From the NCBI GenBank assembly GCA_029860345.1, contig JAOUBJ010000008.1, positions 62,001 to 126,000 of the forward strand: a DNA stretch of 64,000 nt. The letters are read 5' to 3'. Of the stretch, positions 14,490-30,536 are shown piece after piece (positions within the stretch are counted from its first letter, which is position 1; the number at the start of each line of letters is the position of its first letter). The translations under genes and the position numbers were made by a program. Below the pieces are notes generated by a model. It was not told the DNA's origin, did not search any database, and was given only the letters and a program-made list of their open reading frames with translations. The stretch is from Candidatus Zixiibacteriota bacterium (GTDB lineage Bacteria > Zixibacteria > MSB-5A5 > GN15 > FEB-12).

Positions 14490-17357
14490 TCAGAACTCAG
14501 CGCGAATACCGAAAAACACCTGCCGGGGCGGGCCGTAGTTCTGAGGGTTGGCTTGTTTTAACATATACTTCTGCTCGTAGTTCAAGCCGGTCTCGTCGGG
14601 GTCCGGCTGGTACTCGATCATGATTTGGCCCATTTCGGTGTCCAGGTATCCGTTGTAATCAGGTTCGCCTGTAACGTTCCAAACATCGGCAATATTTTCG
14701 GTATCCAGCAGGTTTTTGATCCACAGAAAAGGAACGAAACTCATCCCGCCGAATGAGACTCTCCGCTGGACCCTCAGGTCAACAGTCGAGACCCACTCGG
14801 ACCGCTCTGAGTTAACTGACCCCAGCAAAACCCGACGGTGAAGGCGCTCCGAGGCACCATCATACGGAGCCAAAGGAGTGTAAGGACGACCACTACTGAC
14901 CCTGGCCGTTAGGTTCACATTGAGACCTTGCAGCGGGTAGATGCCGCCGATGCGTGGTCCGGTCGACTCGGCCATATTCAGATCAACGCCCCCCACGAAT
15001 TTGTGCCTGCGATCATAGTTCAAAGCACTGGAAGCAAGCTGCACGGCGCTCCAGTTGATACCAAATGAAGAGAGTCCGATCTGTGGGACTCCAGTGGGCT
15101 CGGTCCAGGTGTAAGTAAGCGAAGTCCGAAGCAGAGAAGTCAATCGCGACTCGACTCCGGCGGTGAAACCTTTGGCCTTGGTCTCCAATCCTCCGGCATA
15201 AATGACGTAGCTCGAAATTGTGCCGGCCACAGAATCTACCGAGGCGATACCAATTTCATCAGTCGTCTTTCGCCAAAAGGCAGCGAAGGAGAACGTCAGT
15301 TGGTCCGAAGCGCGGATAGCCAAGCCCACATCAAGGTTACTTGACTTTACAGTTTCGATCCTCGCATCGGAGTGGGGATGGAACCTTGCACTCGTAACTC
15401 TGTTTTCGAAAAGCGCCCAATCATTGTAGATCTGCCGGAGCGGGGGCAGCTGGTGGCTGATGGCGAATCCGGCGTGTACCCTCAGCAAATCCCGGACACG
15501 ATAGGACGCCCGAAAACTCGGCGATAGTTTGCCGAATGAAGATGTTTTGGTCAGATCGACCTGATCAATCTTCTCAGGGTCACCCAGGCCAAAGGGATTG
15601 GTGTAGCTACGCAGCAGGTAATCTTTGTGATCGAACTTCTCCCACCGCAGTCCGGCGGTCAGAGCGAACCCCATGTAACTTAGCCGGTCTTGAGCAAAAA
15701 AGGCGAAGCTCACCGGGTGTTTGGTGTCATGCCTCCAGTCCTCACTGTCTGATTCCCGCCCGAGTGAATCATAGCCATACCGAATGAGATACCTATCCGA
15801 GTTACTGTTGGTAGCGTCCAGATTCTCAAAGTAACGAAGCGTGTGACGACGGTACTCAAAACCGGCGCTCAATATGTTGTGGTCTCCCAAACGCGCACTC
15901 AACTCACTCTGGAATCCAAGCGTGGACGACTTGTAGTGCATGAAATTGGCGAAATAATGGTCGTAAGGCATGTAAACCTCATTGCCCGAAGTATCGGTAG
16001 CCCGGGTAAGCTCATCCGACACGTAAAACAGGTCAAAACCATCTAATTCAGGATTTCCTATGTCAGTAACCCAGCCGTCCGGCCATACATAGTGTCGACG
16101 GTAGGCTTCGTAGTTGTCAAACACGACACCATCGCCCTGAATCCGTTCGGTCTCTCGGTAGTTGCCGACAATAGAGGCGCTTACTTTGTCGTTGATTCGA
16201 CAGGCAAGGCGACCACTGAGTCCCAGGTTGTCGTCTTTGAAGCGAGGCGTATGCGCTATATCAAACAGAAAAACGTGACGGTACTCACTCCACTCATCAC
16301 TTGACTTGTCTCCGGTAACGGTCAGAGATAGATCATCGGTAAAATCGTAGTCGGCCCGTCCGTGATACGTCCAACCGCTCTGCCAGTTGTTGGGCAGTCG
16401 GTCCGGCGCACCTGGAAGGACCTCTTTGGTTTTGGGCGAAGGATTGCGATCGGCCAGCCATCGGCGCTCCACGGTCGACATGAAGTAGCCGCGCTTAAGC
16501 AACGGAATCGGCCCGCTCAATCGAGCGGTGTACCAGTTTTGATCGTATCCGGAACCGATACCGTTGTCCGTCACCGCCTCCACCATGCCGGAATACTGTT
16601 CGCCGCCACCTCGGGTGAGTATTTCTATAGCCCCTGAGTTTCCGTCGGAAGCCGTAGCCGAGTTTAATGACGACCTGAAGACCAACTGTTCTATGGCGTG
16701 CGGACTCACCGACGCGGTATAGTTTCTACTGATCGGCTCAGTGAAACTCACGCCGTTGACTGCATATCCCTCATCCCACAGACGGCCACCCATGGCGTGC
16801 ACCTGCGTCGAATTCTGAGGATCGTGAGCCGCCTGGATTTCGTGAAGTTGGATCGCGTTGGATCGCGACTCGGTGACCGTCGGCTGCAAAAGTAGAAAGT
16901 CCTGCAGTGTGCGGGCGGGCAGCCGGGTGATCTCATCCCTGGCGACCATTGCAGCGCCGACTGCGTTTTGCGTCGTTGTGGAAACACCGGACGAGGCCTC
17001 ACCGACCAAAGCCAGGCGGCCGGGTTGAACAGTCGTAACTCCCGCCACAACATGCAACTCGTCGACCACAAGGGAATCATACCCAATGGCTGCTATCACC
17101 AAGCGGTAGCGACCGGCAATCAAGTTGCCCACTCGGTAATCGCCCAGGCTGTCGGTCACCGCCTCCGTCAGGTGACCCGGCCGACTTATCGATACCACCG
17201 CTCCCACCAACGGCGAGCCTGATTGGCGGTCGTGCACGGCACCCTCAACGGCTCCGAAGGTCGCGGCGTGGCCCGTCGATAGAGGCATCAGCATCACCAT
17301 TAGACATACCACCGCCAAGCTTCCAGCCGGCGAAGGGACAAAACTGGGTTTGAACAT
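14490..17357 (-). CDS. TonB-dependent outer membrane receptor
   Basis: From the ATG at 17357, placed six bases after GGAGG, the protein has 955 residues. A signal peptide (ending STGHA) precedes a carboxypeptidase-regulatory-like beta domain (GAVEGAVHDRQSGSPLVGAVVSI) and a plug domain (LQDFLLLQPTV, then GGRLWDEGYAVNGVSFTEPISRNY). The remaining 700 residues alternate aromatic and polar positions as in a 22-strand barrel, and the protein ends with a terminal phenylalanine (FFGIRAEF), the usual Bam recognition signature. The ligand is unknown. It has its own promoter and operator and faces away from the two-component genes only by position; it is transcribed in the same direction as they are. 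Confidence 0.88.
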   Translation of the reverse strand: MFKPSFVPSPAGSLAVVCLMVMLMPLSTGHAATFGAVEGAVHDRQSGSPLVGAVVSISRPGHLTEAVTDSLGDYRVGNLIAGRYRLVIAAIGYDSLVVDELHVVAGVTTVQPGRLALVGEASSGVSTTTQNAVGAAMVARDEITRLPARTLQDFLLLQPTVTESRSNAIQLHEIQAAHDPQNSTQVHAMGGRLWDEGYAVNGVSFTEPISRNYTASVSPHAIEQLVFRSSLNSATASDGNSGAIEILTRGGGEQYSGMVEAVTDNGIGSGYDQNWYTARLSGPIPLLKRGYFMSTVERRWLADRNPSPKTKEVLPGAPDRLPNNWQSGWTYHGRADYDFTDDLSLTVTGDKSSDEWSEYRHVFLFDIAHTPRFKDDNLGLSGRLACRINDKVSASIVGNYRETERIQGDGVVFDNYEAYRRHYVWPDGWVTDIGNPELDGFDLFYVSDELTRATDTSGNEVYMPYDHYFANFMHYKSSTLGFQSELSARLGDHNILSAGFEYRRHTLRYFENLDATNSNSDRYLIRYGYDSLGRESDSEDWRHDTKHPVSFAFFAQDRLSYMGFALTAGLRWEKFDHKDYLLRSYTNPFGLGDPEKIDQVDLTKTSSFGKLSPSFRASYRVRDLLRVHAGFAISHQLPPLRQIYNDWALFENRVTSARFHPHSDARIETVKSSNLDVGLAIRASDQLTFSFAAFWRKTTDEIGIASVDSVAGTISSYVIYAGGLETKAKGFTAGVESRLTSLLRTSLTYTWTEPTGVPQIGLSSFGINWSAVQLASSALNYDRRHKFVGGVDLNMAESTGPRIGGIYPLQGLNVNLTARVSSGRPYTPLAPYDGASERLHRRVLLGSVNSERSEWVSTVDLRVQRRVSFGGMSFVPFLWIKNLLDTENIADVWNVTGEPDYNGYLDTEMGQIMIEYQPDPDETGLNYEQKYMLKQANPQNYGPPRQVFFGIRAEF

Positions 17358-17400
17358 AACATTCCTCCCGGAAAAAGATGTGTCTCTGCCTGATGTCCTT

Positions 17401-17418
17401 ACTATACCGGGGTATAGT
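17401..17418. promoter_or_regulatory. palindromic operator at the TonB receptor promoter
   Basis: ACTATACC and GGTATAGT form a perfect 8+2+8 palindrome. It starts about 7 bases downstream of the TATAAT box of the receptor promoter, so it covers the expected transcription start, the classical place for a repressor site. The regulator is not identified. Confidence 0.6.
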
Positions 17419-17424
17419 TTATTC

Positions 17425-17453
17425 ATTATAGCGATGTTTACCGACAGAAACAA
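17425..17453 (-). promoter_or_regulatory. promoter of the TonB receptor gene
   Basis: On the minus strand a perfect -10 box TATAAT (17430-17425) is preceded, after 17 bases, by TTGTTT (17453-17448), a weak -35. A weak -35 with a strong -10 fits a controlled promoter. Confidence 0.6.
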
Positions 17454-17482
17454 GACAACCAAGTGTTATTTCAGAGCAGTTT

Positions 17483-18823
17483 TCAGAAGCGCATGGTGAA
17501 TCTTGTGTGCACCTCGGGCGTGGACATGACGAACAAGTCACCGCGATGCAATCGCATGATCTGACGAGCCAGACTTAGACCAATCCCGGAGCCACCTTTG
17601 CGAGTCGTATAGAAAGGTACAAATATCTTTTCCAGAGCGTCGGGAACAATCCCCGGTCCGTTGTCGGACACATGGATGACGGCGCGACCGCGATCATCAA
17701 TACCCGCCTCGATATCTACGCGCGCCCCGTCACGCCCGCCCGCTGCCTGGATGGCATTCAAGACCAGGTTTATCAACGCCTGTTCCACCAGTTGTGGGTC
17801 AGCTACCAGTTGAAGGTTGTCCGGATGCACGGTACAGTCGAACTCGACGCCCTGTTCGGCCAGTTGCGATTTGATCAGTTGCGCCACTCGATCCAGCAAT
17901 TCGCCCAATGGAAAATTGAGATACTCCGGTTTGGGCAGGTGAGTAAGGTCGCGGTAGGCATCGACAAATTGTGTGAGACCGCCCGCCCTCTTCTGGATGG
18001 TCTGCAATGCGTCTCGGATATCGGCGCTACTGTCGTAGGCATCATCGGCCGACCGATCCGAAGCCACCAGGTCCTCAACGGTTGCCGCCAACGAGGCAAT
18101 TGGCGTGAGCGAGTTTTTGATTTCGTGGGTGAGCACTCGGATAAGATTCTGCCAGGCTTCCATCTCCTTCGCATTCAATTCGCTGCTGATATTCTGAAGC
18201 GTGACCAGTGTTATCGCCTTGCCACGCTGCCTTAGCTCGGTGGCGTAAACGGACAACTGCATCAGCTCTTCGTTGAGGGTCACGGTGACCAAGGTGCGTT
18301 GACCCGACTTTATGTTCAACAGTTTGTCGACCAGGGCTGGACAACTCTCCTGCAGGGAACGGATGTTTCTCAATCGGGGCAGGTTGAACATCCGCTTGGC
18401 AGCCGGGTTCAGAAGTTCGACATCGCCGCTTTTTTGAAACGCCAATAACCCGATTCCGATATGCTGCACCACCGTTTGGAGATAGTGCAAGCTCTCTTCA
18501 CGCTCGGCGCGGACCTCGCGGAATCTCGACATCACTTCACCAAAGGCAAGGTTCAGCTCCTCGAACGAGGCACCCTTCAGGCCGCCGGTGAAGGTCTGCG
18601 AAAAATCGGAATGGGCGATCGACAGCAGGAAGCGCTGCAGGTTACGATTGGTGGTCTCAATGAACCTGATCAAGCCGAATATCTGATAGACGATGGTGAT
18701 AGCGACGATAATGGTGGTAGCATACAAACTGGTGGCCAAGAGTAGGTGGACGAACAAAACGATAGTAGCGCCCAGGACAAGCACTCGCAGAAGACAGAGC
18801 GTCCGAAAGCGCTTAGAGGCCAT
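17483..18823 (-). CDS. NtrY-like sensor histidine kinase
   Basis: The 446-residue protein has two N-terminal membrane helices (about residues 12-55) with almost no periplasmic loop, a HAMP-like linker, a PAS-like segment ([31 protein letters not shown]), and the kinase core. The phospho-acceptor histidine is in [20 protein letters not shown]. The ATP-binding boxes are N ([11 protein letters not shown]), G1 ([13 protein letters not shown]) and G2 ([14 protein letters not shown]). The arrangement suggests sensing within the membrane or cytosol. It overlaps the end of the response regulator gene by 11 bp, so the two form one operon and a cognate pair. Confidence 0.92.
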
Positions 18824-20189
18824 AGCGATCCAATCTGCGGTAGAGCGCCGCCCGTGTCAAACCGAGTTCTCTGGCCGTGCGTGTTACATTGCCGTCATGC
18901 TTGGCCAGAGCCTTGCGAATGACTGTCTTTTCCACTTCCTCCAGGCGGAAGCTGTCAATCAACAGATCACCCGAAGCTTTGCCGGCCGAGGAAAGAACGA
19001 AATCTTCCGGCTGCAAAGTCGATGCGTCGCACATAATAACGGCTCGCTCGATTGTATGCTCCAGCTCACGCACGTTCCCCGGCCAACCATAAGCTCGGAG
19101 CTTGGTAAGGCACGAGGCGCTTAGTTTGGTAACGGTGCGCCGGTACTTGTGTGCGTATCGGCGCATGAAATGCTCGGCCAGTACCGCCATGTCATCCGGC
19201 CTCTCACGCAACGGTGGCAATTGAACCTCGACCGTGTTGATGCGATAGAGCAGATCCTCGCGAAACTTGCCCTCACGCGCCAACTCGATCAAGGAGACGT
19301 TGGAAGCGCAGATCAGTCTGATATCGATAGGTATCTCACTGTTGGAGCCGACTCGCGTCACCTTGCGGTTTTGAAGAACAGTAAGTAGTTTGACCTGCAA
19401 GGGCAGCGGAAGGTTTCCAATCTCATCAAGAAACAGCGTCCCCCCTGTGGCTGTCTCAAAACGTCCGGCTCGATCTTCGCGGGCATCGGTGAAAGCGCCC
19501 TTGACATGGCCGAACAATTCACTCTCAAAAAGCGTCTCGCTGATAGAACCCATGTCTACCTTGACAAACACTTCCCCGGCCCGGGCCGATTGCCGGTGAA
19601 CGGCACGCGCTGCCAACTCTTTGCCGGTGCCGTTCTCCCCAAGGATCAAAACATTGGCCTCGGTAACGGCAACTTTCGAAATCACGCCGAACACTTTTTG
19701 CATGGCATCACATGATCCGATGAAGTCCCTGAACGGAAGGTCGAGCTCCTCACTCAGCGCTAACTGCCGCTGGCGCAGAGTTCCCACTTCGCGACGCGAA
19801 CGACTTAGTTTCAGCGCCGACATAACGGTCGCCAACAGCTTTTCGTTTTGCCAGGGCTTCTCCACGAAATCGGTTGCGCCATATTTGATCGCCTTCACGG
19901 CCAGGTCGACATCGGCAAAGGCGGTGATCAATATCACCACCGCACCGGGATCGATCTGCAAAATCTTGTCAAGCCAGGTAAGCCCCTCCTGTCCGCTGGT
20001 GACATCCTTGGTGAAGTTCATGTCGAGCATGTAGACGTCGAACTCCTCATCGTTCACCAGATCAGGCAGACACTCCGGACTAGTCTCGGTGCGCACTCGG
20101 CTGACATGCTGTTTCAAAAACAGCCGAGCCGCCTGAAGAACGTCTTCATCATCATCGACAACTAAGATTCTACCGTATTTTTCAGTCAT
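18813..20189 (-). CDS. NtrC-family sigma-54-dependent response regulator
   Basis: From the ATG at 20189 (AGGA seven bases upstream) the protein has 458 residues in three parts: a receiver domain (VVDDDEDVL; phospho-acceptor Asp in VYMLDMNF; conserved Lys in DFVEKPW), an AAA+ ATPase (Walker [11 protein letters not shown], Walker [12 protein letters not shown], arginine-finger region typical of the family), and a C-terminal Fis-type helix-turn-helix ([25 protein letters not shown]). The sigma-54-contacting GAFTGA loop reads GAFTDA, a substitution seen in other active family members. It is transcribed away from the adaptor/ABC cluster, whose upstream region contains a sigma-54-like promoter, so that cluster is the likely target. 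Confidence 0.93.
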
Positions 20190-20282
20190 GGTGTCCTGCC
20201 AGAATATAATATGCTTTCGTCTGCCATATTTCAAGGACTTCAATAGCAGATTCCGTTCCGAATGCGACGGGCCGACCTAAGT

Positions 20283-20299
20283 CGTTGTGAATCACAACG
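20283..20299. promoter_or_regulatory. palindromic candidate enhancer site for the NtrC-type regulator
   Basis: CGTTGTGA and TCACAACG flank a single A as a perfect 17-bp palindrome. It lies about 140-155 bases upstream of the -24 element of the sigma-54-like promoter, a normal distance for an NtrC-type upstream activating sequence. Only one full copy is visible. A short direct repeat (CCAGCGGAC at 20352 and 20374, 22 bases apart) lies between the palindrome and the promoter. Confidence 0.5.
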
Positions 20300-20438
20300 T
20301 CATGCGCCCGGGAACATTCCTGCGAAAGTCGCGGATCACCTTGACTGTACGCCAGCGGACACCCTATGTTTCACCAGCGGACGGTTTTGAGGTCGACTTG
20401 ATCGTGCAAGCCCTTGGCTTCCAGCCAGTTCTGGCGTT

Positions 20439-20454
20439 GGGCACACTTTTTGTT
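20439..20454 (+). promoter_or_regulatory. sigma-54-type (-24/-12) promoter of the ABC cluster
   Basis: GGGCAC at 20439 and TTG at 20450-20452 match the -24/-12 consensus TGGCAC-N5-TTGC with correct spacing; mismatches are the first T and the final C (here TTGT). Transcription would start near 20465, and the adaptor gene begins at 20509. The divergent neighbour encodes a sigma-54 activator, which strengthens the assignment. Confidence 0.55.
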
Positions 20455-20508
20455 CGTAACATGGGCAAGTGAGATTGCGTAACAAAAAAGTGTCAACGGA
20501 TAGAATCT

Positions 20509-21762
20509 ATGGATAGACAGATACAAAAGAGAAAGTGGCCGCCCAAGAAAATCGCCTGGGTATCGGTCTCCGCCTTGTTCATACTGGCGATAGCTTACAA
20601 TTTGATTTTCGGCGATCACTCCTCCAAACTCAATGTGCGGGCCGAGAGACTGACTGTCTCGACGGTATATAACGGTGAGTTTCAGGAGTTCATTCCGGTG
20701 ACCGGTGCAGTCATTCCGATCAAAACCAATTACCTTGACGCCATCGAAGGTGGCCGTGTGGACACCGTGTTCCTTGAGGCCGGTACCACTGTTGAGAAAG
20801 GTGACAGAATCCTGAAACTGGGCAACACCAACCTGCTTTTGGACATCATGTATCGCGAAGCGGAGTTGGTCCAGCAAAGCAACAACCTCAGAAACACCAG
20901 GCTAACCATGGCCCAACGTCGGCTGGCCGTGCAGGGTCAGATTCTGGAGCTTGACTATCAGATCAAGCAGCAAAAGCGTGTCTTTGAACAGTCCTCGGAA
21001 CTGAAGCAAAAAGGTCTGATCGCCGGTCAAGAATACGAGGAGGCCAGCGATGAATACGAGTACCTGGTGGCCACCCGTGAACTGACCATGGAGCAATATC
21101 GACAGGACTCCATCTATCGCGAAACGCAGATTGCGCAACTGGAAGGTTCGTTGGCCAGAATGGAATCCAACCTCGAAGTCGTCAGACAAAACCTGGATAA
21201 CCTGGTTCTCAGAGCACCGATATCGGGCCAGCTTACGTCGTTAAACGCGGAGGTGGGTGAGAGCAAAGGACGCGGCGAACGCCTGGGACAGATCGATGTA
21301 TTGGAAGGTTTCAAAGTGCGCGTGCCGATCGATGAACACTATATCGCACGGGTAGACATGGGACTGGCCGGCGAGTGTACTTACAACGATAGCGTATACC
21401 ATCTCACCATCAAGAAAGTGTACCCCGAGGTGCTCAATGGCCGCTTCGAAGTTGACATGGTGTTCGTCGACCAGTCTCCGCCGGAGATCCGTCGCGGCCA
21501 AACGCTGCGCATTCGGCTTGAGCTGGGTGATTTGTCTCAGGCTTTGCTATTGGCCAGCGGCGGTTTCTACCAAAAGACCGGAGGACGATGGGTCTTTGTG
21601 GTCGACGAGTCGGGAGACATGGCCGTGAAACGAGATATCCAACTGGGACGCCAGAACCCCCTCAACTATGAGGTCCTGTCCGGACTCAGCGCCGGTGAGC
21701 GGGTCATTACATCATCGTATGACAGTTTCGGCGAAGTCGAGAAATTAGTATTGAAAAAATAA
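20509..21762 (+). CDS. periplasmic adaptor (membrane fusion protein) of an ABC exporter
   Basis: The 417-residue protein has one N-terminal membrane helix (about residues 14-32), a first half of the biotinyl-lipoyl-like domain (AIEGGRVDTVFLEAGTTVEKGDRILKLG), a long coiled-coil hairpin (about 110-235, rich in Glu, Gln, Leu and Arg), the second half of the lipoyl domain (LVLRAPISGQLTSLNAEVGE), and beta-barrel and membrane-proximal parts. This is the MacA/HlyD layout. It would bridge the inner membrane permease to an outer membrane channel; no TolC-like gene is in the window. First gene after the sigma-54-like promoter. Confidence 0.9.
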   Translation: MDRQIQKRKWPPKKIAWVSVSALFILAIAYNLIFGDHSSKLNVRAERLTVSTVYNGEFQEFIPVTGAVIPIKTNYLDAIEGGRVDTVFLEAGTTVEKGDRILKLGNTNLLLDIMYREAELVQQSNNLRNTRLTMAQRRLAVQGQILELDYQIKQQKRVFEQSSELKQKGLIAGQEYEEASDEYEYLVATRELTMEQYRQDSIYRETQIAQLEGSLARMESNLEVVRQNLDNLVLRAPISGQLTSLNAEVGESKGRGERLGQIDVLEGFKVRVPIDEHYIARVDMGLAGECTYNDSVYHLTIKKVYPEVLNGRFEVDMVFVDQSPPEIRRGQTLRIRLELGDLSQALLLASGGFYQKTGGRWVFVVDESGDMAVKRDIQLGRQNPLNYEVLSGLSAGERVITSSYDSFGEVEKLVLKK

Positions 21763-21818: not shown

Positions 21819-22508
21819 ATGATAAAAATCGAAAACCTCGAAAAAGTCTACCGCACTGAAGAAGTCGAGACGACCGCCCTTAACAAAGTCAATGTCGAAA
21901 TCAACGAGGGCGAATTCGTGGCCATAATGGGTCCTTCCGGCTGCGGCAAATCGACACTTCTAAACGTGCTGGGTTTGCTGGACAATCCCTCCTCGGGTAA
22001 GTACCACCTGTTGGGCCAGGAGGTCTCGGGTTACACCGAAAGACAACGCGCTCAGCTTAGAAAGAACAACATTGGGTTTGTCTTTCAGAGCTTCAACCTG
22101 ATCGATGAACTCACCGTGTTGGAAAACATCGAATTGCCGCTGTTATACCTTGGACAGTCGGCGGGCATGCGCAAACTGCGAGTTCACGACGTCATGGAGC
22201 AAATGCAATTGACGCCACGCAAAGGCCACTTCCCGCAGCAACTCTCCGGTGGTCAGCAGCAGCGCGTGGCGGTGGCCCGGGCCGTTGTGGCCGAACCCAA
22301 ACTGATCCTGGCTGATGAGCCGACCGGTAATCTCGACTCCAGTCACGGCGACGAAGTGATGAATCTTCTGTCGTCGTTGAACGAGGCCGGCACAACTATC
22401 GTCATGGTAACTCACTCACCGGCCTACGCAGAACATGCCAGGCGCACGATTCACCTGTTCGACGGGGCCGTAGTTACAGAAGATTTCTCATCGCAGCATC
22501 ATGTATAG
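21819..22508 (+). CDS. ABC transporter ATP-binding protein (MacB/LolD type)
   Basis: All motifs are intact in this 229-residue subunit: Walker A GPSGCGKST, Q-loop FQSFNLIDEL, signature LSGGQQQRVAVARA, Walker B LILADEPTGNLDS, and the switch histidine in VMVTHSPAYAEHA. This class energises MacB-type mechanotransmission transporters rather than moving substrate across the inner membrane. The stop overlaps the next permease by eight bases, so the two are coupled. Confidence 0.95.
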   Translation: MIKIENLEKVYRTEEVETTALNKVNVEINEGEFVAIMGPSGCGKSTLLNVLGLLDNPSSGKYHLLGQEVSGYTERQRAQLRKNNIGFVFQSFNLIDELTVLENIELPLLYLGQSAGMRKLRVHDVMEQMQLTPRKGHFPQQLSGGQQQRVAVARAVVAEPKLILADEPTGNLDSSHGDEVMNLLSSLNEAGTTIVMVTHSPAYAEHARRTIHLFDGAVVTEDFSSQHHV

Positions 22509-24855
22509 CAACTACCTTAAAGTCGCCCTGCGCAACATCGTTCGGCACAAGACCCACGCGGTCATCAATGTGGTCGGACTGGCTGTCGGCATTGCTTGCT
22601 GTCTGATGATTCTAATCTGGGTCGACAGCGAGTTGGGCTTCGATGAGTTTCACAGCAAGGTCGATCGGCTTTACCGGGTGGTGCGCTATACTACCGAAAG
22701 CGAGTCGAGCGAGTTCAGAGCCATCACGCCCTCTCCCCTGGGTCCGGCGCTGGTCGAGGAGCTGCCCGAGGTCGTTGCCGCGACGCGGTCCGGCGGCGAC
22801 CATCCGCGCCTGGTCAAAAAGGACGACCGTTTGTTTCAGGATGATAAGATAGCCTTTGTCGATCCATCCCTGTTTACACTGTTCTCGCTACCATTGTTGT
22901 ACGGCGACTCGTTAACGGCCTTGACCGATCCCTCTTCGGTGGTCATATCCGAAAGTATGAGCCGCAAGTATTTCGGAGACGACAATGCCGTGGGACAGGT
23001 ACTGAATATCGAACGATCCGACTATACGATCTCGGCCATCATGAGGGATTTGCCGGACAAATCGCACCTGGCCTTTGACGCCGCGCTGCCGTTTGAGTCG
23101 CGCTCGGATCATGTCAAAGAAGTCAGCGATCGCTGGGAGGCTTCCGGCTACTACACCTATGTGCTCCTCGACGACGATGCATCCACGGCCCAAGCCACCG
23201 AGAAGATGAACGCGATTCTTAACCAACACCTGGAGAACCCAGAGTACCGTCTTGAGTTGCAACCCATAACGAAGGTGCATTTGCATTCGGCCGGCATCTT
23301 CGGCGAGAAAGCCAAGGGCATTGTGTATGTCTACATGTTCAGTGCTATGGCTATTCTGATCCTTATTGCCGCCTGTATCAACTTCGCCAACCTGACCACC
23401 GCCCGCTCAAGCGTGCGGGCTACCGAAATCGGCGTTCGCAAGGTTATGGGTGCGCGGCGGACTGATCTGGTGCGGCAGTTCCTGGCCGAAGCGGTGATCA
23501 TGTCCGGTGTGGCAGCCATCATTGCCTTCGGGTTGGTGGAAATACTGTTGCCCGCCTTTTCCGTTTGGGCTGGTAAAGACCTCGGCCTGCACTTCGCATC
23601 CAACTATCAGCTACTGTTGGCCATTCTGGCCGTGACCGGAGTGACCGGACTGGCCGCAGGCGCCTATCCCGCCTTGTGCCTCTCATCATTGATACCAATC
23701 CGGGTACTCAAGGGAGAACGCTCGGGACGACGCGGCAAGAGCCTGCTGAGAAGAATCCTGGTCGTGACACAGTTTGCGCTCTCCATATTCTTGCTGGTGT
23801 GCGCGTCGCTGGTCTATCAACAGCTTACCTTCATGACCTCCGGCGATCTCGGATTTGTGCATGACGATGTAATGAGTATATACATGCGGGGCGGTTTTTC
23901 AAGTGAATATCCGGCCCTGCGGCAGGAATTGCTGGCCATGCCCGGCGTCGTCGACGTTACGGCCGGTACACCGCCGGTGGAATTGAGTTGGGGGAGTGCT
24001 GACCTGGAATGGGAGGGCAAGGACCCCGACCTCCGTTTTGGAATGGGACGCTACAACATAGATTATCAGTACATCAGTCTTTTCCAGATGGAGATGCTAA
24101 AGGGACGCGGGTTCTCGCAGGACCATCCAACCGACCTGACGGAAGCCTACATCCTGAACGAGGCGGCCTTGAGTAAGATGAAGCTCGATGACCCTATCGG
24201 CAAATCATTCGCGATGGACGGTCGCCAGGGTAGTATCATAGGCGTCGTAAAGGATTTTCATATTTTCTCCATGCACGACGAGATCATCCCGCTGGCGCTC
24301 CAGATGGACCCCGACGGATTGGAGAATCTGATCATACGCACGACACCGGAACAGGCTGCGACCGTCATGAGTTTTATCGAGTCGCGATGGCGGGAGCTCT
24401 CGCCCGAATATGCCTTCGACGCCCAGTATCTGGATGCGACCATCGAAGGCTTCTATAGATCGGAACACCAGACGGCTACACTGGTCGGATGGTCGGCCGG
24501 AATAGCCGTTGTCATCGCCTGCCTGGGACTGTTTGGGCTTGCCTCGTACATGGTGGAACGGCGCACCAAGGAGATAGGTATCCGCAAACTGCTCGGTGCC
24601 GGCGTGACCGGTATCGTTCGAATGTTGTCGACGGAATCGACCTGGCTGATTATCGCAGCCAACGCCCTGGCCTGGCCCGCGGCCTACTATGCTGCCGATC
24701 TATGGCTGGCGCGGTTCGCCTACACTATTGAAATCAACCTGATTACATTCTTCACTGCCGGCTTCTTCGTGCTCGCCATAGCGTTGGTGATAATCGCAGG
24801 TCACACCATCAGAGCGGCACGAGCCAACCCGGTGAATGCCCTTCGGAATGAGTAG
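22501..24855 (+). CDS. MacB/FtsX-type ABC permease, first of three
   Basis: The 784-residue protein is a tandem-domain permease: N-terminal helix (MYSNYLKVALRNIVRHKTHAVINVVGLAVGIACC), a periplasmic MacB_PCD domain, an FtsX domain (coupling segment TEIGVRKVMGARRTDLVRQFLAEAV), a second periplasmic domain, and a second FtsX domain (KEIGIRKLLGAGVTGIVRML) ending ARANPVNALRNE. MacB itself has a single such unit, so this is the doubled form. Its neighbour ATPase is complete and overlapping, making it the likely partner. Confidence 0.9.
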   Translation: MYSNYLKVALRNIVRHKTHAVINVVGLAVGIACCLMILIWVDSELGFDEFHSKVDRLYRVVRYTTESESSEFRAITPSPLGPALVEELPEVVAATRSGGDHPRLVKKDDRLFQDDKIAFVDPSLFTLFSLPLLYGDSLTALTDPSSVVISESMSRKYFGDDNAVGQVLNIERSDYTISAIMRDLPDKSHLAFDAALPFESRSDHVKEVSDRWEASGYYTYVLLDDDASTAQATEKMNAILNQHLENPEYRLELQPITKVHLHSAGIFGEKAKGIVYVYMFSAMAILILIAACINFANLTTARSSVRATEIGVRKVMGARRTDLVRQFLAEAVIMSGVAAIIAFGLVEILLPAFSVWAGKDLGLHFASNYQLLLAILAVTGVTGLAAGAYPALCLSSLIPIRVLKGERSGRRGKSLLRRILVVTQFALSIFLLVCASLVYQQLTFMTSGDLGFVHDDVMSIYMRGGFSSEYPALRQELLAMPGVVDVTAGTPPVELSWGSADLEWEGKDPDLRFGMGRYNIDYQYISLFQMEMLKGRGFSQDHPTDLTEAYILNEAALSKMKLDDPIGKSFAMDGRQGSIIGVVKDFHIFSMHDEIIPLALQMDPDGLENLIIRTTPEQAATVMSFIESRWRELSPEYAFDAQYLDATIEGFYRSEHQTATLVGWSAGIAVVIACLGLFGLASYMVERRTKEIGIRKLLGAGVTGIVRMLSTESTWLIIAANALAWPAAYYAADLWLARFAYTIEINLITFFTAGFFVLAIALVIIAGHTIRAARANPVNALRNE

Positions 24856-24870
24856 TCACAGGAGAACGTA

Positions 24871-27318
24871 ATGCTAAGAAACTACCTTCTGGTTGCCCTG
24901 AGAAACCTCTACCGCAACAAGCTGTATTCCGCTATTGGCGTCATCGGGTTATCACTGGGAGTGACCTGCTGTCTGTTGAGCTTTCTCTACATTCGGCATG
25001 AGTTGTCCTTTGACCGCTTTCATGCCAACGGCGACAACATCTACCGACTGATCCAGACGGAGAGTGAAAGCCACTCAAGTTCTGCAGGCTCCTCCTCTAC
25101 CTCGCCAATGCTGAGAGAGGCGGTGAAAACGGGCATATCGTCGGTAACGCAGGCCACACTGGTAACAGGTTCAGAGCATGTGGTTTCACGCGGCGCCAAG
25201 TCGTTCACCGAATCGGTGCTGAGTGTTGACAATGATTTCTTACAGATGTTCTCTTTCGAACTCCGTGGAGGTGACCCGGCCACAGCCCTTCTGGACCCGT
25301 CGTCGGTGGTGGTGACTGAAGACATTGCCCAAAAGTACTTCGGTTCAGGAGATCCGATCGGTGAAACCGTTACAATCCTATTGGGTGAAACCAACGTCGA
25401 TCTAATTGTCTCGGCAATCATAGAAGCCGCCCCCGTTACTTCCAGTATTCAATACGATTGTCTCATCTCTGCATCGTTACTCAAACATACCATCCCTGAA
25501 GAAGTGACACAGAGTTGGACCAACGTGCTGGTCTCGACCTATGTTCAAATACCACCGGGCACCGATATTGGGTCGCTGGAAAGAGCCATGTCGTCACATA
25601 TCACCGGCTTGGCGTCGAAAGACCATCCGGATTTACAACTCAGTTTTTCTCTCCAGCCGCTGGCCGACATCCACCTTGAGCCTCGCTACGAAGGCGAATC
25701 GATCTCCTCCACCGATCCAATCTACCATATTGTACTGTCAGCCATCGCTCTGGCGATCCTGACCATTGCCAGTATCAATTTCGTCACCTTATCGGTGGGA
25801 CGTTCCAGCACTCGCACGCGCGAAGTCGGGTTGCGCAAAGTTCTGGGGGCTCGCCGCGGCCAACTCATGAAACAGTTCTGGGGTGAACCGCTCCTTTTGT
25901 GTGTCGCAGCCGGGATACTTGGTGTGGCCCTGACCGAAGGGTTTCTGCCGACCTTCAGTGAGCTGGCCCAAAGACAGTTATCGCTCGATCTTTTTACCGA
26001 CTGGACAATCCTGCCCACTTTGCTGGCCGTGGTCTTAATTACGGCATTCCTGGCCGGAATCTATCCTGCCGCTTTGCTGTCACGATTGGCCCCAACAGAC
26101 GCCATGCGCGGGACCGCTGCTTTCGGCGGGCGCCGCCGCATAATACAAACCCTGGTGGTGTCGCAGTTTGCGCTGTCTGTTTTTCTGATCCTCAGTACGT
26201 TGGTGATATCATCGCAATTGGATTTTGTCCGCAGCAGACCGTTGGGTTACGACAAGGATTACGTTGTGAGTGTGACCACCAACACAGAAGGCGAGGAGGC
26301 GGCCGACCTGGTCGCACGTTTCCGTAACGAGCTGGCGGGTCAACCGGGCATCGTTGACATTTCCGGATACTCGTATCCGTTCGGCCAGTCGTGGCTCTAC
26401 GTCCGAATCCCCGACGAGGGTGGGACAACTGTTCTGATAGGAGAGGATGTAACCGGACCGGCCTTCTCCATCGCCGGCGACACGGCTGTCTACTTCTATC
26501 TGAATTGGATTGATCCATATTATATTCCGACCATGGGGATCAAGATGGTTGCCGGACGCAACTTTTCCCCGGACTATTCCTCAGACCAAAACGGAGCTAT
26601 CCTGATCAATGAAACGGCAGCCAGACATTTGGGCCTTGATAACCCGGTTGGGCAGAAACTGCCGAAGGGTTTCAGCGATGCCACGATTGTGGGTGTGGTC
26701 GAGGACTTTCACTACTATCCACTGCACCGCAAGATCGATCCGCTGGTGTTTCACATGCCGCGACACGACAATCTGAGCAGCCTGTTTGAAATCGCGGTAC
26801 GTGTTCGGTCGGACGATGTCCCGGCCACTCTTGCCCGCATCGAGAACGCCTGGGACCGTACCAGCAACGGCAAACCGTTTGCATACGAGTTTGTGGATGA
26901 GACCGTCGATCAACAATACGCAGACGAACGACGCTGGCGGGAAATCGTGCGCAATGCCTCAGCTCTGTCTATCCTGATCACCTGCCTGGGTCTGTTCGGA
27001 CTGACCTCGCTGGCCGCAGCCAAACGGACCCGTGAAATCGGCATCCGCAAAGTGCTGGGTGCCACGGAGTCGAACATCGTTCGATTAGTCTCCAAGGAGT
27101 TCATTGTTCTCGCCGCTATCGGCATCGCCGTCGCCAGCCCGATAGGGTATCTTTCGTTAAGCCGATGGCTGGACAGGTTCGCCTATCATCCAAGTCTCGG
27201 TTGGGAGACCATTGCACTCGCGGGATCGGTTTCCCTGGCCATTGCTCTCACATCGGTGAGTGTTCAGGCGCTGAAAGCTGCCCGCGCCAATCCAGTAGAC
27301 TCAATCAAGTATGAATAG
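24871..27318 (+). CDS. MacB/FtsX-type ABC permease, second of three
   Basis: This 815-residue paralogue has the same doubled layout: N-terminus MLRNYLLVALRNLYRNKLYSAIGVIGLSLG, FtsX coupling segments TREVGLRKVLGARRGQLMKQFWGEP and TREIGIRKVLGATESNIVRLVSKEF, and C-terminal ARANPVDSIKYE. GGAGAACGTA precedes the ATG, 15 bases after the previous stop. It is closer to the third permease than to the first at the N-terminus (shared ALRNLYRNKLY). It has no ATPase of its own directly beside it. Confidence 0.9.
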   Translation: MLRNYLLVALRNLYRNKLYSAIGVIGLSLGVTCCLLSFLYIRHELSFDRFHANGDNIYRLIQTESESHSSSAGSSSTSPMLREAVKTGISSVTQATLVTGSEHVVSRGAKSFTESVLSVDNDFLQMFSFELRGGDPATALLDPSSVVVTEDIAQKYFGSGDPIGETVTILLGETNVDLIVSAIIEAAPVTSSIQYDCLISASLLKHTIPEEVTQSWTNVLVSTYVQIPPGTDIGSLERAMSSHITGLASKDHPDLQLSFSLQPLADIHLEPRYEGESISSTDPIYHIVLSAIALAILTIASINFVTLSVGRSSTRTREVGLRKVLGARRGQLMKQFWGEPLLLCVAAGILGVALTEGFLPTFSELAQRQLSLDLFTDWTILPTLLAVVLITAFLAGIYPAALLSRLAPTDAMRGTAAFGGRRRIIQTLVVSQFALSVFLILSTLVISSQLDFVRSRPLGYDKDYVVSVTTNTEGEEAADLVARFRNELAGQPGIVDISGYSYPFGQSWLYVRIPDEGGTTVLIGEDVTGPAFSIAGDTAVYFYLNWIDPYYIPTMGIKMVAGRNFSPDYSSDQNGAILINETAARHLGLDNPVGQKLPKGFSDATIVGVVEDFHYYPLHRKIDPLVFHMPRHDNLSSLFEIAVRVRSDDVPATLARIENAWDRTSNGKPFAYEFVDETVDQQYADERRWREIVRNASALSILITCLGLFGLTSLAAAKRTREIGIRKVLGATESNIVRLVSKEFIVLAAIGIAVASPIGYLSLSRWLDRFAYHPSLGWETIALAGSVSLAIALTSVSVQALKAARANPVDSIKYE

Positions 27319-27332
27319 AAACGGAGAACATC

Positions 27333-29717
27333 GTGGTCAAGAACTATCTGGTAATAGCCCTTAGAAACCTCTACCGCAACAAACTCTACACGGTGGTTAA
27401 CCTGGTCGGGCTGGGTGTAGCCATGGCCTTGTGTGTTGGCGCCTACGTCAACTATGAGTTCGGCGCCGACTTTGACTCCTTTCATGAAAAGGCCGATCAA
27501 ATCCACACGATAAACAGCTACCGCTTGGTGGACGGCAACCGTCAAAACTGGTCACTGACACCTGAGCCGATGGCCCCGGCCATGGCCTCGGAAATCCCGG
27601 GCATAAAGAACTGGAGCAGGGTAACACGCAGCGGCGGCATCATGCGCCATGAAGAACAAGTGTTCAACGAGACCTTCTACTACGTGGACGATGGTTTCTT
27701 TGACATGATCTCGTTTGACATTATATCCGGCACGGAGGATACCTTCGACGATCACGCCGGCATCATCATAACCGAGGACCTGGCTCAGAAATACTTTGGG
27801 AACGAAACCGCCGTCGGAAAACGCATGATTCTCTCGCCCGATGGACAACAAGAGTATGACTTCGTCGTCTACGGCGTCATGGCCAAGCCACCCAAGAACT
27901 CCTCGATGCAACCGAACGTACTCGTGCCTTACGCAAAGTCCGCCGACCTGCGGGAGCGTGATCTGACCAGTTGGGACCGATGGACTCGGGCCGTTCTGAT
28001 TGAAACCGAACCGGGGGTCTCAATAGCATCGATCGAGACTCAATTGGATAGGTATCTTTCGCACACCAACGAAGCCAACCCGACTTTTGAAATGGCCGGG
28101 TTTTATGTTTCACCTCTGACCGAACTGGCCGAACACTCACGCAACGTCTACGGCGGCCCGTTCTGGCAGGGCATGCACCCGGCGGCAGTTTACGGCCCGA
28201 CTGTCACCGCAATTCTCGTACTGCTGTTGGCCTGTTTTAACTTCATCAATACGTCAATCGCGTTTTCCTCAAGACGGCTCAAAGAGATCGGCATCCGCAA
28301 AGTCATCGGCGGGCAGCGCGGACAGTTGGTCAAGCAGTTCATAGGCGAAAACTTGTTGTTGTGCCTGGTCTCACTGGTCGTAGCCGCCGCTTTGGCCGAG
28401 GTGATCGTGCCTGCCTATTCCAGCCTCTGGCCGGATTTGGAACTGACCATGAACTATGCCGACAATCTGGGGTTAGTCGGCTTCCTGGTTGGATTACTCC
28501 TGTTCACCGGTCTCGCGGCGGGGGCTTATCCGGCCCTATACGTTAGCAAGTTCAACCCCGTGGCTATATTCAAGGGCAAGCAAAAACTGGGCGGCAACAA
28601 CACCATCACCCGGATCCTACTAACTTTCCAGTTTGCTCTGGCCATGACGACTATCATTGCCGCGGTCGTTTACAGCAAGAACGCTGAGTTCATCCAAACT
28701 ATGGAACTTGGTTTTGACCGAAACACCGTCTTACTCGTTCGCGTCTCCAACGAGACTGAATTTGAAATCATGCGCAACGCCGTGAAGGATCATCCGAAGA
28801 TACTCAGCGTTGGTGGCACCGAACACTTGATGGGTTGGTCATTCGCCGCCGATGACGCCATTTATGAGGAAGAACGTCGGCGGGTCCATCTGTTCAATGT
28901 CGGCGAGAATCACTTTGAAACAATGGGCTTCACCCTGCTTGAGGGACGCACGTTCGATTCCGAACTCGCAATAGATTATGAGGAGGCAGTGATCGTCAAC
29001 GAGCTGCTGGTCGAGGAGTTCGGATGGTCGTCCGCTCTCGACAAATACCTCACTTTTGAAATTACCGACAGTACCACCGAACAGTGCCGCGTGGTCGGCG
29101 TGGTCAAGAACTTCTATCCCAACGGCGTCGACTCGAAGCTGCGACCGACGGTAATGCGACTGGTGCGCCCGGAAGCGTACACCTTTCTGTCCGTAAAATC
29201 CGATCCCGCTACGACAACAGAGGTGGCTGGATTCGTTCAGGAGACCTTCACCCGTCTAATCCCCACTCGACCCTACGACGGCTTCTGGCAGGATGAAACG
29301 CTGGCTGATGAAACGCTGACCAACAACGCCATCCGACTTGTATTCCTCTGGATTGCCGGAATGGTTGTCATAATATCCGGTATGGGTCTTTTTGCGCTGG
29401 TGTCGCTGAAAATAGCACGCCGAACCAAGGAGCTTGGCATACGCAAGATTCTCGGCGCTACAATGATGAACATCAGTTACCTGATCTCCAGAGAGCTGTT
29501 AGTAATGATTACCCTCGGATGCATTCTGGCCTCCGGCCTGGGCTACTACCTGGTCGACGCCCTCTGTTCAAGCATCTGGACCTATTACACCGATTTCGGT
29601 GTGACGCCATACTTATCCTCCGGACTACTGGTCATGGGCGTGGCGGCACTGACGGTTGGCTTTCAAGTGTACCGAGTGTCCTCCAACAATCCAGTGGAGG
29701 CCATTCGAGACGAATGA
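27333..29717 (+). CDS. MacB/FtsX-type ABC permease, third of three
   Basis: The 794-residue paralogue starts at a GTG (27333) behind ACGGAGAACATC. It repeats the doubled architecture: MVKNYLVIALRNLYRNKLYTVVNLVGLG, coupling segments KEIGIRKVIGGQRGQLVKQFIGEN and KELGIRKILGATMMNISYLISRELL, ending SSNNPVEAIRDE. No alternative ATG offers a better ribosome binding site. It is separated from the second ATPase by about 150 bp containing a hairpin, and those two are plausible partners. Confidence 0.9.
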   Translation: MVKNYLVIALRNLYRNKLYTVVNLVGLGVAMALCVGAYVNYEFGADFDSFHEKADQIHTINSYRLVDGNRQNWSLTPEPMAPAMASEIPGIKNWSRVTRSGGIMRHEEQVFNETFYYVDDGFFDMISFDIISGTEDTFDDHAGIIITEDLAQKYFGNETAVGKRMILSPDGQQEYDFVVYGVMAKPPKNSSMQPNVLVPYAKSADLRERDLTSWDRWTRAVLIETEPGVSIASIETQLDRYLSHTNEANPTFEMAGFYVSPLTELAEHSRNVYGGPFWQGMHPAAVYGPTVTAILVLLLACFNFINTSIAFSSRRLKEIGIRKVIGGQRGQLVKQFIGENLLLCLVSLVVAAALAEVIVPAYSSLWPDLELTMNYADNLGLVGFLVGLLLFTGLAAGAYPALYVSKFNPVAIFKGKQKLGGNNTITRILLTFQFALAMTTIIAAVVYSKNAEFIQTMELGFDRNTVLLVRVSNETEFEIMRNAVKDHPKILSVGGTEHLMGWSFAADDAIYEEERRRVHLFNVGENHFETMGFTLLEGRTFDSELAIDYEEAVIVNELLVEEFGWSSALDKYLTFEITDSTTEQCRVVGVVKNFYPNGVDSKLRPTVMRLVRPEAYTFLSVKSDPATTTEVAGFVQETFTRLIPTRPYDGFWQDETLADETLTNNAIRLVFLWIAGMVVIISGMGLFALVSLKIARRTKELGIRKILGATMMNISYLISRELLVMITLGCILASGLGYYLVDALCSSIWTYYTDFGVTPYLSSGLLVMGVAALTVGFQVYRVSSNNPVEAIRDE

Positions 29718-29870: not shown

Positions 29871-30536
29871 ATGATTTCACTGAAGAACATTTCCAAAGTT
29901 TATCGCGCCAAACCGTTCGACACCTGGGTCCTGCGTGGGATCGACCTTGAGATTGAAGCCGGTGAGTTCGTTACTATCATGGGACCCTCGGGCGCCGGTA
30001 AGTCGACGCTGTTGCACATCATTGGTATGCTCGACGCCGCTTCAGAAGGTGAGTACACTTTCATGGGCGAATCAGTGATGACCCTGAAGGAAAAAGAGCG
30101 GACCCATTTGTTTCAACAACACATTGGCTTCGTGTTTCAGAGTTATCATTTGATCGACGAGTTGAACGTTTACGAGAATCTCGACACGCCGCTCTTGTAT
30201 CGCAAAGTCAAGGGAGCCGAGCGAAAGAGCCTGGTCTGCGACACTCTGGATAAGTTTCAGATAGTCGGCAAGAAGGATTTGTTCCCGAGCCAGTTGTCGG
30301 GCGGACAACAGCAACTGGTCGGGGTGGCCCGAGCGTTGATAGGTTCGCCCAGGTTGCTGCTGGCCGACGAACCGACCGGAAACCTGCATTCCTCGCAGGG
30401 CGAAGAGATCATGGAACTGTTCAAGAAGCTCAACGAGGAAGGTACGACGATCATTCAGGTGACGCACTCGGAGAAAAACGCCGCCTACGGCAATCGCATC
30501 ATTCAATTGCACGACGGCTTGGTCAGCAAAGGATAG
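29871..30536 (+). CDS. ABC transporter ATP-binding protein, second of cluster, with motif variants
   Basis: The 221-residue subunit has Walker A GPSGAGKST, Q-loop FQSYHLIDEL, a signature reading LSGGQQQLVGVARA, Walker B LLLADEPTGNLHS and switch histidine in IQVTHSEKNAA. Two positions differ from the first ATPase and from most of the family: the usual QR after the signature is QL, and the D-loop reads NLHS instead of NLDS. Neither removes a catalytic residue, so it is probably active, but coupling may differ. Last gene of the cluster, convergent with the YbjQ-family gene. Confidence 0.92.
   Translation: MISLKNISKVYRAKPFDTWVLRGIDLEIEAGEFVTIMGPSGAGKSTLLHIIGMLDAASEGEYTFMGESVMTLKEKERTHLFQQHIGFVFQSYHLIDELNVYENLDTPLLYRKVKGAERKSLVCDTLDKFQIVGKKDLFPSQLSGGQQQLVGVARALIGSPRLLLADEPTGNLHSSQGEEIMELFKKLNEEGTTIIQVTHSEKNAAYGNRIIQLHDGLVSKG

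Follow-up and report, generated by a model that had tools for sequence, protein, structure and literature searches.

Positions 20190-20508 of the window (the whole 64,000-nucleotide stretch analysed here, from a Candidatus Zixiibacteriota genome of 4.76 Mb that is 99% complete) separate a divergent regulator gene from an ABC transporter cluster, which raises the question of which elements in this DNA are regulatory and whether they control only the neighboring genes. The preliminary description of this region had proposed a 17-bp palindrome as the enhancer and a self-contained, signal-induced transporter locus. The analyses point instead to a sigma-54 regulon controlled from this region, with a hub of adaptor, ATPases and permeases that would very probably be co-expressed with dispersed permease genes.

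Gene content of the locus

The gene calls held, with the hub genes ordered as adaptor, ATPase, three permeases and ATPase (Table 1). The regulator had been described as NtrC-type, and Pfam matches recovered its receiver, sigma-54 activator (PF00158, E=9.8e-65) and Fis-type HTH (PF02954, E=1.5e-15). As expected from the earlier proposal of a sigma-54 promoter, the genome possessed one match to rpoN (PF04552, E=6.9e-57). The presence of rpoN in the genome and, at the locus, of a GG/-12 element with its spacing and an activator with a sigma-54 domain and HTH is as in a sigma-54 system. The reported divergence of the regulator and kinase genes from a promoter facing the adaptor and ABC cluster was found here and, beside the adaptor, in 10 of the 10 orthologs with upstream DNA.

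Table 1. Positions in the window of the hub genes, the regulatory genes and the elements of the intergenic region.
Feature	Positions	Strand	Remarks
Sensor histidine kinase	17483..18823	-	Pfam HisKA + HATPase_c
NtrC-type response regulator (receiver, sigma-54 activator AAA+, Fis-type HTH)	18813..20189	-	Pfam
17-bp palindrome CGTTGTGA-A-TCACAACG	20283-20299		Arms 8 nt, 1-nt centre
Enhancer site 1 (predicted) TGTACGCCAGCGGACA	20346..20361	+	Consensus TGTnCG-N4-CGnACA; conserved in alignment
Direct repeat CCAGCGGAC	20352-20360 and 20374-20382		Start-to-start 22
Enhancer site 2 (predicted)	20368..20383	+	22 bp downstream of site 1; CGGAC kept
Sigma-54 -24/-12 promoter GGGCACACTTTTTGTT	20439-20454	+	GG 20440-20441; GT, not GC, 20452-20453
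Periplasmic adaptor (HlyD/MacA-like), hub gene	20509..21762	+	Pfam HlyD_3, NCBIfam RND_mfp
ABC ATPase 1 (LolD/MacB/DarD-like)	21819..22508	+	Orthologs 71-81% identical
Permease 1, duplicated MacB_PCD/FtsX (ADOP-like)	22501..24855	+	
Permease 2, duplicated MacB_PCD/FtsX	24871..27318	+	
Permease 3, duplicated MacB_PCD/FtsX	27333..29717	+	
ABC ATPase 2 (DarD-like)	29871..30536	+	70-74% identical in orthologs that have ATPase 2

Hydropathy of the kinase and of nine orthologs indicated, in 10/10, an N-terminal hydrophobic stretch for two helices within the first ~58 residues, the loop between these two adjacent transmembrane helices being very short. Because almost no loop is left between them, the kinase probably detects its signal inside the membrane or in the cytoplasm; its stretch 95-205 was PAS-like when read by eye. 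Profile scans recognized no outer-membrane factor in the hub operon. A TonB-type barrel of 990 aa with a CarboxypepD_reg domain (14490-17462, minus strand) lay 20 bp after the kinase gene and is probably in one transcript with it. It was considered as a part of the system and rejected, as it was not found adjoining the kinase in any of 10 ortholog stretches.

Elements of the intergenic region

The palindrome and the direct repeat with 22-base spacing were present as first described, and the -24/-12 element had the correct spacing and the GG dinucleotide, only its -12 dinucleotide departing from the GC expected. Neither the palindrome nor the promoter alone was far beyond chance: perfect palindromes (arms 8 nt or longer, loop 0-5 nt) occurred in 2.4% of mononucleotide shuffles of the 319-bp region and in 7 of 200 window tiles of that length, and the promoter score was reached in 10.7% of such shuffles. 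The promoter and the direct repeat can nevertheless be read as real regulatory DNA because both are conserved in orthologs.

The repeated unit corresponded to the spacer and right half of two tandem sites. In site 2 the right half was conserved and the left half was weaker (TGTTTC from 20367). Not the 17-bp palindrome but this direct-repeat region, in which two 16-bp palindromes stand in tandem, is most likely the enhancer. An inverted repeat (ACACTTTTTGTT / AACAAAAA..GTGT, 20443-20454 and 20481-20493) overlapped both the -24/-12 element and the adaptor mRNA leader.

Conservation of the module in the order

Adaptor matches (E<=1e-60) were found in 12 of 80 genomes of the order, including the genome studied here; the eleventh ortholog (G025), cut by a contig end, was left out of the upstream comparison. 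All 11 intergenic regions (240-403 bp) contained the tandem sites and a sigma-54 promoter, with site 1 at 89-93 bp from the promoter and a second, weaker copy 21-22 bp after site 1 at every hub locus. The GG dinucleotide and the spacing were also kept in 11/11 hub promoters, with GC at -12 in six, GT in three (window included) and GA in two. The regulator orthologs were 59-69% identical and retained the HTH sequence LGLTRxxLYRR.

Unlinked permease genes preceded by the same module

A sequence-only model (R1), built from 11 adaptor promoters alone, was run on 79 genomes and recovered 33 held-out sites at E<=1e-5. The 12 genomes that have an adaptor ortholog accounted for 29 of these, and four lay elsewhere. 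Downstream of the 29 sites were 27 duplicated MacB/FtsX permeases, one masked stretch and one lipoprotein-like ORF, and the four other sites preceded a distant adaptor-ATPase-permease cluster (three) or a lipoprotein-like ORF (one). The genome studied here possessed two such satellite permeases, at C4:35982 (R1 E=3.2e-11) and C3:142080 (E=4.6e-5); at the former, a near-identical double site before an unlinked permease had first been seen by pattern search. The earlier prediction of a self-contained locus is therefore not borne out, since the same promoter module also precedes unlinked permease genes, here and in related genomes.

Permease 2 had a close relative (51% identity) in G071 that was a stand-alone satellite with its own site (L172), and relatives of permease 3 in G071 and G032 (48% and 45%) were likewise satellites with their own sites (L173 and L175). 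Each of the ten satellites scanned had two stretches of MacB_PCD and two of FtsX domains, and no relative of the hub ATPases (E<=1e-15) was found in 31 satellite stretches. A strict regular expression found the coupling motif in both halves of 14 of the 24 satellite frames and in one or both halves of 22. In 36 of 42 promoters that scored well for sigma-54, the gap between site 1 and the promoter was again 89-93 bp, and one of the six outliers (L168) was an artefact of a trimmed end. No recognizable sigma-54 element was present at satellites L127 and L131, whose sites are clear.

Proteins similar to permease 1 (E<=1e-60) occurred in 13 of 79 genomes, namely all 12 with the adaptor locus but only one of 67 without it (Fisher p=2.5e-13, a value that ignores shared ancestry); the exception, G059, had two such permeases and no adaptor ortholog. 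Among the 105 permeases listed, 33 were in hub operons, six were second in tandem pairs and four were cut by contig ends. A site preceded 31 of the remaining 62, and one more when filters were removed (32/62), so that the regulon would cover about half of the stand-alone permeases. Four of the 30 siteless permeases were cut by a contig edge or stood behind another permease; in the genome studied here, no site was found for the permeases on C6, C10, C11 and C16.

A single-site search with TGTnCG-N4-CGnACA gave six exact matches in the 4.76-Mb genome, site 1 of the window among them. Such single boxes are weak evidence, as the full module stood at only two of the six (window and C4) and the others were in ORFs or had no recognizable module. 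Matches to the tandem pattern with one mismatch in other genomes often looked like chance, and an exact match in G059 had neither promoter nor permease.

Association of box and regulator across phyla

The comparison was extended to 80 named loci from several phyla, 72 of them not from training genomes. R1 matched in the 450 bp preceding the adaptor at 43 of the 80 loci (35 of the 72 non-training loci), and five further loci had a palindrome with 9-10 of 10 positions together with a sigma-54 element. Leaving out four loci with too little upstream DNA, 76 were usable, and the box was present in 41 of 42 with a divergent regulator vs six of 34 without. The HTH sequence LGLTRxxLYRR, or one close to it, was found in the regulators of the named loci and differed in those paralogs of the own genome that could be read. 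From this co-occurrence and from the conservation of the HTH, the box appears tied to the adjacent divergent regulator.

Proposed mechanism and alternative explanations

NtrC-type proteins, once phosphorylated, bind upstream sites and activate the sigma-54 polymerase. From the sites, promoters, spacing and co-distribution described above we infer a corresponding course for regulator binding, signal, partner sharing and substrate. On receiving a signal in or beneath the membrane, the kinase would phosphorylate the regulator, which would oligomerize on the tandem pair of palindromic sites (TGTnCG-N4-CGnACA), spaced by about two turns of the helix. Bound to both on one face of the helix, it would open the sigma-54 promoter ~90 bp downstream and drive the hub operon with its adaptor, two ATPases and three permeases. 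Because unlinked permease operons of one gene each are preceded by this module too, hub and satellite permeases would be induced together. The sensor-regulator pair thus probably switches on both the neighboring transporter genes and scattered genes for matching channels. Since the satellites have no adjoining ATPase, their likeliest partners would be the hub ATPases and adaptor. Such a hub-and-spoke exporter, with one conserved adaptor/ATPase hub powering many interchangeable orphan MacB-type permeases dispersed along the chromosome, and an intramembrane-type kinase with its NtrC-type regulator synchronizing them by way of a fixed sigma-54 promoter module, is proposed tentatively, at close to an even chance.

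Co-regulation of hub and satellites is strongly supported by these sequence comparisons, with some observations standing against it: about half of the non-hub, first-in-line permeases are siteless, lipoprotein-like ORFs instead of permeases follow two of the 33 held-out sites, G059 has its permeases without an adaptor ortholog, and 5/11 hub promoters depart from GC at -12. As for the enhancer, the 17-bp palindrome is perfect, lies between regulator and promoter, and occurs in its exact form once in the genome, all of which speaks for it as the regulator's binding site in a self-contained locus. That reading is now highly improbable. The palindrome was absent from 10/10 ortholog intergenic regions, even that of the closest ortholog (best match 8-11 of 16 positions), while the tandem sites were kept in all. 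Forms with up to three mismatches occurred at 29 places in the genome vs 19 for a reversed-pattern control. Without conservation, and not being repeated at the satellites, the palindrome was rejected as an operator, and the unlinked permeases preceded by the module contradict self-containment. It is also quite unlikely that a different NtrC-type paralog recognizes the tandem boxes, even with 16 matches to the regulator in the own genome (E<=1e-60, itself included), as the box accompanies the adjacent regulator across phyla and the HTH conserved in that regulator differs in the paralogs read.

A weightier alternative is that hub and satellites are co-regulated but share no partners, the satellites using other ATPases, such as a general LolD-like one, or none. 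A LolD-like ATPase, ~46-49% identical, was found in many of 18 genomes searched, including some without an adaptor ortholog, and the half of the stand-alone permeases that have no site also fits this reading, which we place somewhat below an even chance. Against it, the permease family hardly occurs outside genomes that have the adaptor locus. Hub-type ATPases (at least 68% identity) number one or two per genome vs one to at least 13 permeases, a lower bound with at most 13 candidates scored per genome. In addition, hub ATPase 1 shows 71-81% identity from genome to genome, compared with mostly 30-40% for the permeases, whose number varies. This conservation and these numbers are what a shared motor would be expected to look like, co-regulation being in itself no proof of sharing. 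Joint induction with the hub nevertheless suggests that many orphan channels have one central motor and adaptor in common.

Comparison with known systems

The closest published logic is that of PrsK/PrsR. In PMC1569441, the PEP-CTERM system is described as dispersed single-gene operons, in each of which a regulator motif and a -24/-12 promoter are separated by a rather constant distance, with a motif distribution that matches that of the regulator. It resembles the window in its NtrC-like response regulator, transmembrane kinase and dispersed boxed operons, and differs in its box (a 17-mer ended by TTTACA vs TGTnCG-N4-CGnACA) and in its targets, which are PEP-CTERM proteins and not ABC permeases (PMC1569441). 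The best NCBIfam match of the window regulator was the PrsR model (TIGR02915), at 420.2 bits and below the equivalog cut-off of 502.6. Because of this score and the different box, the regulator is not classed as PrsR, although it would work like it.

Bce kinases have almost no extracellular part, and the BceRS regulator is of the OmpR type. The window resembles BceRS-BceAB in a near-loopless kinase adjoining a MacB-like ABC transporter and differs from it in its sigma-54/NtrC regulator, its adaptor and its many permeases. BceRS-BceAB are described as peptide-antibiotic sensing and detoxification modules, and a Bce-like role of the transporter as a sensor is possible (PMC5985334).

The adaptor, LolD-type ATPase and MacB-fold permease also recall MacAB-TolC and DarBCD. 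The nearest NCBIfam models were DarC for the adaptor and DarD for the ATPase, with scores under the cut-offs throughout (DarC 201.8 for 450, DarD 269.5 for 375, DarB at most 94.1 for 700). Annotations list large families of duplicated MacB-type permeases that have no ATPase as orphans, and orphan status is also attached to the ADOP "duplicated permease" family. The satellites share with ADOP (TIGR03434) a length of ~800 aa, two MacB_PCD and two FtsX domains and the lack of an adjoining ATPase, but the three hub permeases of the window do adjoin ATPases; all ten satellites scanned and these three scored 225-349 bits, below the cut-off of 622.3. In group II ECF transporters, which are importers, one energizing module is shared by dispersed substrate-specific membrane partners; their proteins are unrelated to those of the window, where such sharing is proposed.

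Among the open-licence papers listed by literature searches, none linked duplicated orphan permeases to a sigma-54 regulon by title or abstract, and no match was found for Zixibacteria with sigma-54 or for "orphan permease" with a shared ATPase. A term search of the sigma-54 survey PMC3162934 gave no match for any of five terms such as ABC transporter or permease. The shared cis-module links orphan permeases to one ATPase/adaptor locus, a link testable with a single knockout, and its promoter signature predicts targets across several phyla. If true, the hub-and-spoke arrangement would explain how orphan duplicated permeases work without ATPases of their own.

Related loci

The stretch C16:28787-31868 of the own genome (L273, G000) was rejected as a target, having no site; it held a second hub-like ATPase (73% identical) and a permease, with neither adjoining site nor adaptor. 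A stand-alone duplicated permease (L302, G000:C6:150199) lay behind a short ORF that was PadR-like by eye, a layout that suggests a second way to control such permeases. The R1 matches before lipoprotein-like ORFs were at L166 (G032:C101:12466-12574) and L174 (G069:C508:2352-2458), the ORFs reading CSDD... after the signal. The distant adaptor-ATPase-permease cluster (L170, L177 and L178, in G055, G052 and G039) belonged to another family of the order and formed a second, related hub, its box being related as well and its sigma-54 element having GA at -12. Beyond the order, many Neomarinimicrobiota orthologs (L212-L230) kept a sigma-54-like TGGCAC...CTTGTG ~120 bp upstream of the adaptor, without a divergent regulator and without the box; control of these loci may have passed to another activator.
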